Below, piece by piece: positions 47,438 through 52,122 of a stretch of DNA of 64,000 bases. The translations under genes and the position numbers were made by a program. Below the pieces are notes generated by a model. That model searched no databases, was not told the DNA's origin, and was given only the letters and a program-made list of their open reading frames with translations. Source of the stretch: Solitalea lacus (lineage in GTDB: Bacteria; Bacteroidota; Bacteroidia; Sphingobacteriales; Sphingobacteriaceae). Within the stretch, counting starts at the first letter, position 1; each line of letters opens with the position of its first letter. The DNA is taken from positions 3,894,200-3,958,199 of the forward strand of contig NZ_CP091740.1 in NCBI RefSeq assembly GCF_022014595.1, read 5' to 3'.

Positions 47438-48859
47438 TCATTTGCTGATCTTATCGCCAATGTTCTCAATAAAACTATTTTGCAGTAACTGATAATTAGT
47501 TTTACCATTGGCAGTAAGCGGAATTTCGTCTACCAGAACAGTTTTAACCAATGAATGGTGAATACCAAATTTCTCTCGTATAAAATCAGTCATTGGATCT
47601 GTTTCAGTCTCGTTACTTTTAGTCAGGAAAATTAACAGTTTTTTATCCTCAAAATTTGTACATGCTATTAACGAAATAGCAAAATGTTGTTTCAGGTGGT
47701 TTTCGAGCTCATCTAAATTAACCCTGTTACCGGCAATTTTAGTAAACCTCTTTAAACGTCCGGTTATATAGACATAACCGTCAGTATCCATCCGAGCTAA
47801 GTCTCCTGTTTTAAGCCATAGTGTTTGATGATACGAATCAAGGTCTGAATAACCTTCGCTATAACCACCAAAAATATTTGGACCGGAATACAGCAATTCA
47901 CTTGTTTCGCTATCAATGCTAAACTGACCATTTTTTATAGGCAACCCTATGGACCCTAATTTTTCCGCTGTTTTTGCGGGAGGCAAAAACGCCATTCTCG
48001 CTGTGGCTTCGGTTTGCCCATACATTACAAAAAATTGAGTTGTATTACTGATAGAATAGTAATAAAATTTCTCAATCAAATCCTCACTTAATCGCCCTCC
48101 TGCCTGCGTGAAATACCTAAGGCTTGGTAGTTGTTCATTTAAGAAACCTAATCGATTTAACATTTCATAAACAAACGGCACCCCAACAATGCTTGTAAAA
48201 TTATATTGCTTGAAATGCTCCCAAAATGAGCGATTCAAAATGTCATCAACTGAAGTAAAAATTGTACCTCCAGCAATTGCATTTGTAGTCAAAACTGAAA
48301 GGCCATAAGAGTAATGAATTGGTAAATTCAATGGAGTCCTATCTGTCAACTGAATTGGCAGGTAGTCAATTATAGAAAGGGCATTTTCAACAACATTTCG
48401 CTCTGAAAGCTTCACTAGCTTAGGAGAGCCTGTTGTGCCAGATGTTGATAGGAGCAATTTCACTTCAGGCGCAATCACATAGTTCCACTTTTGCAATGAA
48501 ACATAAAGAGTGGTCTCAAGTTCGGTTCCTATCTGTTCATACCCCTCTATTGCCTTACGACTGGCATCAGCTATCATCATTGGCCGATAAAGCTGCTCAA
48601 GTGACTGTTTGAGTTCAACAGAAATAGTATCACCAAACAGTGCAATAACTGCCTTTTCACAATTCCAAAAACTGAACAAGGCTTGCAAAGATTCTATAGA
48701 GTTGTTGGTGTAAAGAAACACCAAATACTTACTATCCCCACAACCAGGAAGATTTACTATCAAATCATCGATTCCAGCTTCTTTCGATTGTTTTAAATCG
48801 TGAAAACCTAGGTTCTTATTGGCTCTAACAAGTTCAAGCAGCTTCATAAATTCAGACAC
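47438..48859 (-). CDS. AMP-forming adenylation enzyme of a dlt-like operon
   Basis: 473 aa class I adenylate-forming enzyme, expected to activate an amino or fatty acid and load it on the adjoining carrier protein. Motifs: LLLSTSGTTGSPKLVKLS (A3), MYGQTEATARM (A5), WLKTGDLARMDTDGYVYITGRLKRFTKIAGNRVNLDELE (A7-A8), TANGKTNYQLL with the catalytic Lys (A10). The size and compact C-domain recall DltA. Start GTG 48859 overlaps the carrier stop by one base; ATG 48847 is an alternative. Last gene of the operon. Substrate not predictable by eye. Confidence 0.88.
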   Translation of the reverse strand: MSEFMKLLELVRANKNLGFHDLKQSKEAGIDDLIVNLPGCGDSKYLVFLYTNNSIESLQALFSFWNCEKAVIALFGDTISVELKQSLEQLYRPMMIADASRKAIEGYEQIGTELETTLYVSLQKWNYVIAPEVKLLLSTSGTTGSPKLVKLSERNVVENALSIIDYLPIQLTDRTPLNLPIHYSYGLSVLTTNAIAGGTIFTSVDDILNRSFWEHFKQYNFTSIVGVPFVYEMLNRLGFLNEQLPSLRYFTQAGGRLSEDLIEKFYYYSISNTTQFFVMYGQTEATARMAFLPPAKTAEKLGSIGLPIKNGQFSIDSETSELLYSGPNIFGGYSEGYSDLDSYHQTLWLKTGDLARMDTDGYVYITGRLKRFTKIAGNRVNLDELENHLKQHFAISLIACTNFEDKKLLIFLTKSNETETDPMTDFIREKFGIHHSLVKTVLVDEIPLTANGKTNYQLLQNSFIENIGDKISK

Positions 48860-49101
48860 TAGTCAAACTGAATATCATATTTTTCCAAAAGTTGCCTCGT
48901 ATTGAGAAAGGTATCCATTTCCATTATATCCTTATCTTCTATCCTGATATTAAATGAATCCTCTATTTCGGCAACCAATACCATGTGAGCAATAGAATCC
49001 CATTGTTTCACAGATTGATAACTTAATTGTTCATTTACTTTTTCTCTCTGAATTCCAAGGGCATTTGAGAATGCCCCAATTAGTTTTTCTGAGTTACTCA
49101 T
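48859..49101 (-). CDS. Acyl carrier protein of the dlt-like operon
   Basis: 80 aa four-helix carrier. The phosphopantetheine site is Ser in KQWDSIAHMVLVAEIEDSF (Ser36 region), preceded by Trp-Asp as in DltC/PCP-type carriers rather than the DSL of fatty-acid ACP. Acidic helix 2. Lies between the SGNH gene (11 bases) and the adenylation gene (1-base overlap), so translationally coupled. Role: carries the activated acyl group to the MBOAT membrane protein. Confidence 0.92.
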   Translation of the reverse strand: MSNSEKLIGAFSNALGIQREKVNEQLSYQSVKQWDSIAHMVLVAEIEDSFNIRIEDKDIMEMDTFLNTRQLLEKYDIQFD

Positions 49102-49112
49102 TTCTTCATTTT

Positions 49113-50021
49113 TTAAAGTATTTGACTTTCGATAATTTTCCTTGAGATGAAATCGCTAAACCTCACTGCCCCTTGATGATTCAAGTGAGCCGAATCATAA
49201 AAAATTTGTTTTGCTTTGAATTTGTCGCTAATTGTAAAATCCCAGTATTGCAGCTTATGCTTTTCAAGAATTTTTGTCAGTAATTTTCTGGAATAAAATT
49301 TACGATCATCAATATTTCGCTTAGGAGAAAATATAAATAGTAGTTTCACCCCTTTCTCTTTACATGAAGCAATAATTGACTCTAAATCATCGATTCGCTC
49401 ATTATCAATTGGACCAACTGGATCCCTATAATTTCTTAAATCCCTTTTTGCAGTCCCAAAAAAAGGCTTGTACCCCTCTGATATATCATCCTTACAGGAA
49501 ATGCAATTTTTAATAATACCATAGAATCGGGTATTGTACCTGACTAAACCAGAGCTTTGAATGATATTATCTTTAAATGATAGATTTAAACTTTGTTTTA
49601 ATTCAGGTTCATTAGTAAAAAATGGAGATAAGAATCTAATTGCATTATATTTATCGCCAACAATTGATTCCTCTAGTTCACGGTTATTTATGTCAATTAT
49701 AATCAACTTAGGCTTATGCCTTTTTAAATAAAAATCTATTAATGCTTTATAATATGGTAACCCTGCCCCATCAATACCTGCATTAATAGTTTTAGTATTT
49801 AAACTATGTTCAAATACCTTTGGAACATATTGATGCATCCCCCTGGAATTTCCAAAAATGACAATGTCATAATTGTTTACAGAATTAAGGTAAGTGTTTA
49901 TTTTTTTATAATACCCACATTTATGCCTAGGAATTAAACTATCTAAGGTGTTGCCAACAAACCGATCAACAATTATGAGCACAACAATAATCAATCCTAA
50001 CTGAAGCATTAACCTCCTCAT
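49113..50021 (-). CDS. SGNH/DltD-like membrane-anchored protein
   Basis: 302 aa from ATG 50021 (MRRLMLQLGLIIVVLIIVDRFVG), which gives an N-terminal membrane anchor and removes overlap with the MBOAT gene; an upstream in-frame ATG at 50069 gives 318 aa. SGNH hydrolase layout: IVIFGNSRGMHQ (Ser nucleophile in GNSR), IIIDINNRELE, and the C-terminal D-x-x-H in FYDSAHLNHQGA. In dlt systems the DltD protein takes the acyl group from an MBOAT partner to the final acceptor outside the inner membrane. 13 bases after the MBOAT gene. Confidence 0.86.
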   Translation of the reverse strand: MRRLMLQLGLIIVVLIIVDRFVGNTLDSLIPRHKCGYYKKINTYLNSVNNYDIVIFGNSRGMHQYVPKVFEHSLNTKTINAGIDGAGLPYYKALIDFYLKRHKPKLIIIDINNRELEESIVGDKYNAIRFLSPFFTNEPELKQSLNLSFKDNIIQSSGLVRYNTRFYGIIKNCISCKDDISEGYKPFFGTAKRDLRNYRDPVGPIDNERIDDLESIIASCKEKGVKLLFIFSPKRNIDDRKFYSRKLLTKILEKHKLQYWDFTISDKFKAKQIFYDSAHLNHQGAVRFSDFISRKIIESQIL

Positions 50022-50034
50022 TACCTCATTATTT

Positions 50035-51453
50035 TTAAAATCGTGAATAAATAAATCTACCTCCTTCAAACTCTCCCATAAGCAATATCAATACAATCAC
50101 ACTTACGGTAAATGCCATCTTTACCAACTGAGAAGTGGCATTATTTAGGCTGAGCCTTTCTTTGAAGAACTCTGTTGTCACTTCATACAATAGAATAAAC
50201 GCTAAGGCTAAAAAAATGAAAAACCTTCCGTCAGAAAACTCTGGAGGAGCCTTAACATTTACAATCCTTTTTAAAATCTCAAAAGCCTCTTCAATGCTAT
50301 TAGACTTAAAAAAGATTCGAGTAAATGCGACCAGGATAAAAGTTACAATTATCGACAAACCTCTACGCAACCACTCTGGAACTTTGAATCCTAAAGAGGT
50401 TTCAAAAAATCGTTTATAAATATTTTCAAAAACTATAAAAGTCCCATGCATTAATCCCCAAACTATAAAAGTCCAATTGGCACCATGCCATAAACCACTT
50501 ATAAAAAAAACAATAAGGATACTACTATATATTTTGATGTATTTAGCCCTTCGTCCACAAAAAGGAATGAAAATATAATCCCGTAACCAGCTGGATAGAG
50601 TTATATGCCAACGTTTCCAGAAATCAGAAAATGATTCTGCAAATAGAGGATGGTTAAAGTTTTGAGTAAGTCTTATGCCTAGCATTCGGGCTATTCCCAT
50701 TCCGATATCGCAATAGCCGGAAAAATCACAATACAATTGTATTGTAAAGAAAATTGTGGCAGTAATTAAATCTCCGGATCCGAAAAGTTCAGGAGTACTA
50801 TAAACATTATCGACGTATACTCCCAATCGATCAGCAACAACCAGTTTCTTGAAAAAACCCGTTAAACATAACAGCAATCCACTTTGAATCATTGATTCTG
50901 AAGCCTCTAAAGACGCTTTAAGCTGCTTTAGAAACGGACCGGAACGCTCAATAGGACCTGCAATAATTTTTGGAAAAAACAGAAAATAAGTAAGTAGGTC
51001 AATCAGATTCTTTTCAGCAATGATACCGCCACGCTTGACATCAATTAAGTAGCTAATAGATTGAAATGTAAAGAAGGAAAGCCCTATGGGTAATAATACA
51101 TTCAAATGGGATAGGTTTCCAGGCCATCCTACCCACATTCGGGCGGTATTTATATTGTCAATAAAGAAATTAGAATATTTAAAGTAAACCAGAATAGCCA
51201 CATTTACAACTAATCCGGTTATATAGACAGTTTTGTTATAGCCCTTGTTATTATTATTCTTTATGCCTAGCGCAATAAAATAATTGAGTAAAACAATACC
51301 AATTATTAACAGACAATGCAAAAAAGAAAACGAGCAGTAGAATATTATACTGGAAATCAATAAGAGATAAACACGATGTCTATCTTTTAAAAGATTAAAT
51401 AATATTACTACTACACACACAAATAAAATGAATGAAAGCGTATTAAAATTCAT
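50035..51453 (-). CDS. MBOAT O-acyltransferase (DltB/AlgI-like)
   Basis: 472 aa polytopic membrane protein, about 11 helices. Conserved MBOAT segments: PKIIAGPIER, CDFSGYCDIGMGIARMLGI, FSDFWKRWHITLSSWLRDYIFIPFCG (first conserved His) and SGLWHGANWTFIVWGLMHG (catalytic His). It should pass an acyl group across the inner membrane to an acceptor. AlgI uses acetyl groups, DltB uses D-alanyl from DltC; the carrier and adenylation genes in this operon support a DltB-like mode. First gene of the four-gene operon. Confidence 0.92.
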   Translation of the reverse strand: MNFNTLSFILFVCVVVILFNLLKDRHRVYLLLISSIIFYCSFSFLHCLLIIGIVLLNYFIALGIKNNNNKGYNKTVYITGLVVNVAILVYFKYSNFFIDNINTARMWVGWPGNLSHLNVLLPIGLSFFTFQSISYLIDVKRGGIIAEKNLIDLLTYFLFFPKIIAGPIERSGPFLKQLKASLEASESMIQSGLLLCLTGFFKKLVVADRLGVYVDNVYSTPELFGSGDLITATIFFTIQLYCDFSGYCDIGMGIARMLGIRLTQNFNHPLFAESFSDFWKRWHITLSSWLRDYIFIPFCGRRAKYIKIYSSILIVFFISGLWHGANWTFIVWGLMHGTFIVFENIYKRFFETSLGFKVPEWLRRGLSIIVTFILVAFTRIFFKSNSIEEAFEILKRIVNVKAPPEFSDGRFFIFLALAFILLYEVTTEFFKERLSLNNATSQLVKMAFTVSVIVLILLMGEFEGGRFIYSRF

Positions 51454-51767
51454 TATTTGAAGTGAATAAAACGGTCAATTTCTCAATTTGCAAACTCTAG
51501 CAGCTTTGCATATCCTGAGTATAATTATGATTTAAAAAATTGAATTTCAGAGTATTGAACATTATTTGTGCCAACTTTTATTTTATTAAACTTCAATCAT
51601 CCAAACCCAACTAAAAATTAAAACAAACACAAAACACTTAACCTCATTACTTTTAAAACAAGTAACATAATCTGAATGAATGGAAGTAAACTATTAATTT
51701 ACTGCTATTTAAAGCCCTCCCATTCAACCTATTTAAGCTTTGTGTTTAAATTTGTACAGTCAGTTGC

Positions 51768-51965
51768 GAAAGTGCATGCAGAATTGAGTATAGCGGTAAC
51801 GGCCAGTTGTTCGTAACGATCTTTCTCAGCCTGACTTTCTACCGTAAAGCTCCAGCAGAGCTTTCTCAATTAAAGTAGAAGGTTCATCATAGGACAGTTT
51901 CAATGCTCTAAAACGGTTCACATAAGCATCGACAGTTTTTCAGTCTACCCCTATAGCCTGAGCGA
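51768..51965 (-). pseudogene. Decayed IstA-like (IS21-type) transposase fragment
   Basis: Read on the minus strand, this stretch gives QAIGVD-stop-KTVDAYVNRFRALKLSYDEP and on to LLELYGRKSG-stop, then in another frame EKDRYEQLAV. The order helix-turn-helix, RF..L.LSY, then ERY-like resembles the N-terminus of IstA. Stops and a frameshift show decay. No terminal repeats recognised. The rest of the 51454-52122 gap is AT-rich with no gene seen. Confidence 0.4.
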
Positions 51966-52122
51966 CTGCACCTAAATACAATATTTACACCCCTTTAGTT
52001 ATACCTCCAATTTGAATTTTAACAGGTAAAAACGTTGATACAGTAATCAGATTTAGGACAAAATGAACTTACTTGCAATAAATTTGTTATCACATATATT
52101 CTATTATAATCTTCTTTTATCA

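Follow-up and report, generated by a model that had tools for sequence, protein, structure and literature searches.

The window analyzed here, 64,000 nucleotides in length, spans positions 3,894,200 to 3,958,199 of the single-contig 4.40-Mb genome of a Gram-negative soil bacterium, a Solitalea-like member of the Bacteroidota. ORF calling places a quartet of genes on its minus strand, running from 51453 to 47438 and encoding, in order, an MBOAT O-acyltransferase of the AlgI/PatA type (50035–51453; 472 aa), a membrane-anchored SGNH transferase (49113–50021; 302 aa from ATG), a phosphopantetheine carrier protein (48859–49101; 80 aa) and an acyl-adenylate/carrier ligase (47438–48859; 473 aa). The first three genes are separated by 13 bp and 11 bp, and the last two overlap by 1 bp. 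A TTG at 50069 is an alternative start for the SGNH gene, with the ATG at 50021 being more likely, and the ligase has an alternative ATG start at 48850. The ORFs, their Pfam matches, the tight spacing and the recurrence of the set in two more Solitalea genomes indicate that these four packed genes are real, as originally predicted. The functional logic put forward in that prediction (adenylate, carrier, MBOAT, SGNH) is also right, and the label ‘Dlt-like’ holds at this level.

The G+C content of the operon is 34.2%, compared to 38.8 ± 1.4% in the other 4-kb stretches of the window, none of which (0/104) is as low. Upstream, between the operon and RND efflux genes, sits a decayed, frame-broken helix-turn-helix-like fragment (minus strand, 51729–51980), whose only Pfam match is to HTH_29 (E = 0.09) and which could conceivably be the relic of an insertion element. 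Given its low G+C content and this adjoining decayed frame, the operon may have been acquired horizontally. No glycan genes lie near the operon, and gene context hence gives no acceptor. Membership of a flexirubin- or arylpolyene-type locus had been named beforehand as grounds for dismissing the prediction; among the ORFs read between 40000 and 60000, no ketosynthase, dehydratase or related genes were recognized.

In the genome, the MBOAT protein is the only one found to match the Pfam MBOAT family (E = 2.7e-31). Against the DltB model, TIGR04091, it scores 193.7 bits, below the cut-off of 375. Its structure model (pLDDT 88) has DltB (6bug) as the best PDB match and contains, after the DltB-like core, two extra C-terminal transmembrane helices (residues 410–429 and 439–459). 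The protein ends in the hexapeptide FIYSRF (minus strand, 50038–50055), which conforms to the acyl-shuttle motif FxYxxF; in Dlt systems this motif is carried by the microprotein DltX, and MBOATs that bear the shuttle themselves have two additional transmembrane helices (PMC12148441). The last residues have low pLDDT values (47–63), making the position of the tail in the model uncertain. In an alignment of 25 MBOAT sequences, H283, H323, F467, Y469 and F472 are invariant, and we propose that Tyr469 (codon 50047–50049) is the acyl acceptor.

The FxYxxF terminus is present in 68 of 68 non-DltB MBOATs in our tree versus none of the three DltBs, which branch apart from all FxYxxF-bearing MBOATs; the operon protein groups with the shuttle-bearing ones. 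A scan for a separate FxYxxF microprotein recovered DltX in the dlt operons of S. aureus, L. oris and Enterobacter, which served as controls, and found none between 46000 and 53000, where the only such ending is that of the MBOAT itself. The three Solitalea clusters likewise gave none, nor did two of the three Bacillales clusters scanned (see below), the third containing only a chance-like FxYxxF frame of 23 residues outside the quartet. FIYSRF departs from the FIYFQF that is usual among carrier-less Bacteroidota MBOATs. In 102 of 102 of the latter, F or L follows the shuttle Tyr, and S, A, M, G and E were seen at this position only beside carriers. As a marker of carrier use, this residue is a correlation rather than a rule: several carrier-adjacent MBOATs keep FIYFQF, the shuttle of N. 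gonorrhoeae PatA is FIYANF (PMC12148441), and one DltX hexapeptide is given as FLYFGF (PMC11035591).

The SGNH protein has an N-terminal helix (residues 2–32), a G-N-S59-R motif and D276-x-x-H279, and thus its Ser and Asp-x-x-His residues are present in a membrane-anchored protein paired with an MBOAT, as in AlgI/PatA-type systems. It reaches no Pfam cut-off, the match to DltD (PF04914) having an E-value of 0.064 and a score of 13 bits versus the required 22.7. The structure model (mean pLDDT 88) has DltD and PatB structures as its top Foldseek matches, and a second structural aligner gave Z scores of 14.6 for thioesterase I, 13.7 for PatB and 12.8 for DltD, with the DltD alignment being long (236 residues).

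The carrier matches the Pfam PP-binding family (PF00550) above the cut-off (E = 2.5e-4), and its attachment residue, Ser36 in QWDS, is conserved. The ligase matches AMP-binding (E = 5.4e-30) and has the Lys of an NGK motif near its C-terminus. As a carrier gene accompanies the ligase at most of 80 related loci, whether or not an MBOAT is present, the carrier is likely the acyl acceptor of the ligase.

DltA binds the D-Ala amino group through the Asp of its SFDLS loop. The corresponding loop of the operon ligase, LPIHYSYGLSVL, is without this Asp. To avoid dependence on alignment register, we scored any acidic residue anywhere in the loop, and found none in 83 of 83 ligase relatives, versus Asp in all three DltAs (those of Enterobacter, S. 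aureus and L. oris, which keep SFDLS). A specific equivalence between the DltA Asp and Gly185 was dropped as register-dependent, with one alignment pairing the Asp with Gly and another with the neighboring Ser. The ligase scores 72.9 bits against the DltA model, whose cut-off is 476, and acyl-CoA ligase models score higher. Its closest solved relatives are oxalate-CoA and 2-succinylbenzoate-CoA ligases and one NRPS enzyme, with DltA far lower. The comparison of the adenylation pocket with DltA, proposed originally as a check, came out against DltA. The lack of an acidic residue in the DltA-type amine-binding loop suggests that the ligase most likely activates a carboxylic acid without an α-amino group, and that the acyl group is probably other than D-alanine. 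Among the candidates first considered (D-Ala, another amino acid or a fatty acid), D-Ala or any α-amino acid thus becomes the least likely. A polymyxin-sensitivity comparison, also proposed originally, presupposes a cationic group and would probably tell little. One caveat on the choice of acid is that sequence alone does not reveal the substrates of short ligases, and that some amino-acid-activating enzymes bind their substrate in pockets of a different geometry.

The ligase-carrier pair is a recurrent unit with at least four kinds of surroundings. In or near glycan loci, it is accompanied by LuxE and LuxC genes and often by an SDR gene (L024, L030, L087, L100); in what appear to be siderophore loci of Pedobacter, Flavobacterium and Taibaiella, it is accompanied by a MATE exporter and an IucA/IucC or amino-acid monooxygenase-like gene (L034, L057, L047, L058). 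It also occurs in an EPS locus (L025) and beside an MBOAT. In the siderophore setting, the ligase loop tends towards FVYGL or SVYGL, whereas YSYGL is common to the glycan- and MBOAT-setting ligases, a hint that these latter two groups may activate one common acid.

The order B-D-C-A is repeated in two other Solitalea genomes, with ∼50–62% identity for the MBOAT, SGNH and ligase proteins, and this recurrence indicates a conserved cluster rather than a fortuitous grouping of ORFs. Among named organisms, Solitalea agri has the operon's nearest relative. One of the two relatives retains the chromosomal neighborhood of the window; in the other, the operon lies elsewhere and has two tandem SGNH genes (L023, 8255–9172 and 9390–10313), perhaps serving two acceptors or two sites. 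A third genome of the genus showed no close ligase. Further afield, about two dozen Bacillales loci have the ligase gene followed by an MBOAT gene with FxYxxF, and the loci that were read completely are stand-alone clusters in the order ACP-ligase-MBOAT-SGNH. No DltB scoring over the family threshold turned up in any of 10 Bacillales genomes with such a quartet (L080–L105), the same search detecting it in two of three controls (B. subtilis, Bacteroides ihuae and L. lactis). In quick trees, the Solitalea MBOATs and the Bacillales MBOATs each form a clade of their own with 100% support, surrounded by carrier-less MBOATs, and their ligases likewise fall into distinct, well supported clades among MBOAT-less relatives. 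Common descent of the two kinds of quartet is thus unsupported, and the simplest reading of these clades, whose deep branches are not firm, suggests that the quartets were assembled independently.

We sampled 112 other Bacteroidota MBOATs and found a same-strand carrier gene within 3.3 kb of 10 of them. The carrier loader is FkbH in three FkbH-ACP-MBOAT-SGNH clusters (L151, L204, L226; confirmed by Pfam for L151), which suggests MBOATs that move glyceryl-type or derived acyl groups, and it is a longer AMP ligase in two others (L246, L258). These longer ligases (L246, 5050–6774; L258, 5247–6965) directly adjoin the ACP and MBOAT genes and have the loop YHDMGL, which fatty-acyl-AMP ligases also have. 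At L253, no loader was evident on reading the locus.

Taken together, these data make it fairly likely that the operon encodes a carrier-fed transmembrane acylation system, in which an MBOAT with its own shuttle hands the acyl group to an SGNH protein for transfer to a glycan. By homology, the ligase would adenylate a carboxylic acid without an α-amino group and load it onto the Ser36-phosphopantetheine of the carrier. At the cytoplasmic face, the MBOAT would take the acyl group from the carrier and, via His323, pass it to Tyr469 of its own FIYSRF tail, which would stand in for DltX. The acyl-Tyr of the tail would then be offered to Ser59 of the SGNH protein, which is anchored in the membrane on the periplasmic side and would pass the group on to a glycan hydroxyl, in the periplasm or at the surface (LPS/O-antigen, capsule, exopolysaccharide or peptidoglycan). 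The Tyr and Ser transfer steps draw on experiments with PatA/PatB and Dlt (PMC12148441), and the carrier step is proposed on the basis of Dlt precedent and the content of the operon.

The same four functions would be expected of a true D-alanylation operon that serves a Gram-negative acceptor and whose DltX has been fused to DltB, and the closest solved folds of the MBOAT and SGNH proteins are those of DltB and DltD. Genuine dlt-type loci do occur in Gram-negative bacteria. D-alanylation has been reported for the Bordetella dra locus (PMC4448142), and we found a dlt-type operon, DltD-DltX-like-MBOAT-ligase-carrier, on an Enterobacter cloacae conjugative plasmid (NZ_CP071862.1; L180, 2436–6488). 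There, the DltX-like protein (40 aa, annotated only as hypothetical) ends in FEYQKF, the MBOAT has no shuttle, the ligase has SFDLS, and IS elements flank both sides. Nevertheless, the absence of Asp or Glu from the loops of the Solitalea ligase and its relatives, the low score of the ligase against the DltA model, and the clustering of a sub-threshold MBOAT with shuttle-bearing proteins away from DltB make a Dlt operon improbable.

Another possibility is that the MBOAT and SGNH proteins form an ordinary acetyl-CoA-fed O-acetyltransferase and that the adjoining ligase-carrier pair serves some other pathway, in keeping with the carrier-less state of the nearest Bacteroidota MBOAT-SGNH pairs and the presence of the ligase-carrier pair in glycan and siderophore loci that have no MBOAT. 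However, three Solitalea genomes keep the quartet, in two separate locations and with no further partner gene, the same combination recurs in Bacillales, and the shuttle tail deviates from the FIYFQF of carrier-less relatives, all of which leads us to regard this possibility as rather unlikely. A carrier-fed system as proposed could also have a lipid or lipoprotein, instead of a glycan, as its acceptor. Polysaccharide genes are absent beside the operon in the Solitalea and Bacillales loci read, and equivalent quartets occur in Gram-negative and Gram-positive cells alike; against this, polymers are the targets of the characterized MBOAT-SGNH pairs cited in PMC12148441, and we give a lipid or lipoprotein acceptor little credence.

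In the open-access literature, we found no description of a ligase- and carrier-fed MBOAT with a fused shuttle, and the Bacillales ACP-ligase-MBOAT-SGNH quartets are likewise undescribed in the literature found. The current account divides MBOAT-SGNH acylation into Dlt, with a carrier and DltX, and acetyl-CoA systems, which are carrier-less and have a fused shuttle. The operon and its relatives break this division, contradicting a published generalization. They suggest that any acid that a ligase can load onto a carrier could cross the membrane, widening the expected envelope modifications past acetyl and D-alanyl. Recognition of a carrier by a fused-shuttle MBOAT becomes directly testable. 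‘Dlt-like’ annotation in Gram-negative bacteria can also mislead. More tentatively, carrier-fed, shuttle-bearing MBOAT-SGNH systems could constitute a class of their own, widespread, so far undescribed and assembled independently, that adds non-acetyl, non-amino acyl groups to bacterial envelopes and, in some Bacillales, is present where canonical Dlt is missing and may stand in for it.

How, then, does the operon compare with known systems? It works like Dlt (DltX-A-B-C-D, teichoic acid D-alanylation), sharing a ligase, carrier, MBOAT and SGNH protein, a carrier-loaded donor and FxYxxF chemistry, but lies outside Dlt by membership, because its MBOAT falls below the DltB model and bears the DltX-type shuttle and its ligase is without the amine-binding Asp. 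The original description of these genes as the functional parts of DltB-D-C-A therefore stands for the shared logic and fails for the MBOAT and ligase. Moreover, DltX is missing, the shuttle being fused to the MBOAT on two extra helices, and teichoic acid is not expected as an acceptor in Bacteroidota. The Enterobacter plasmid dlt operon looks different from that of Solitalea.

The membrane components belong with the AlgI/PatA-type systems (PatA-PatB, AlgI-AlgJ/X, WssH-I), with which they share two additional TM helices that lead to an FxYxxF terminus, the conserved His and the SGNH partner. Non-Dlt MBOAT/SGNH pathways are described as carrier-less, evidently because their donor is acyl-CoA (PMC12148441), whereas the operon has a dedicated carrier and ligase in three Solitalea species, and so breaks this ‘no carrier’ feature. 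The FkbH-ACP-MBOAT-SGNH and acyl-ligase-ACP-MBOAT clusters of other Bacteroidota also have a carrier gene beside a shuttle-bearing MBOAT, but there FkbH or a longer, distant ligase acts as the loader. The Bacillales quartets (Lysinibacillus, Bacillus, Planococcus, Fictibacillus, Exiguobacterium and a Metabacillus plasmid) differ in gene order, in an MBOAT that is no sister in the tree and in an SGNH protein without detectable BLAST similarity, yet have the same four functions in a stand-alone cluster, the FxYxxF terminus of the MBOAT and the ligase loop YSYGL.
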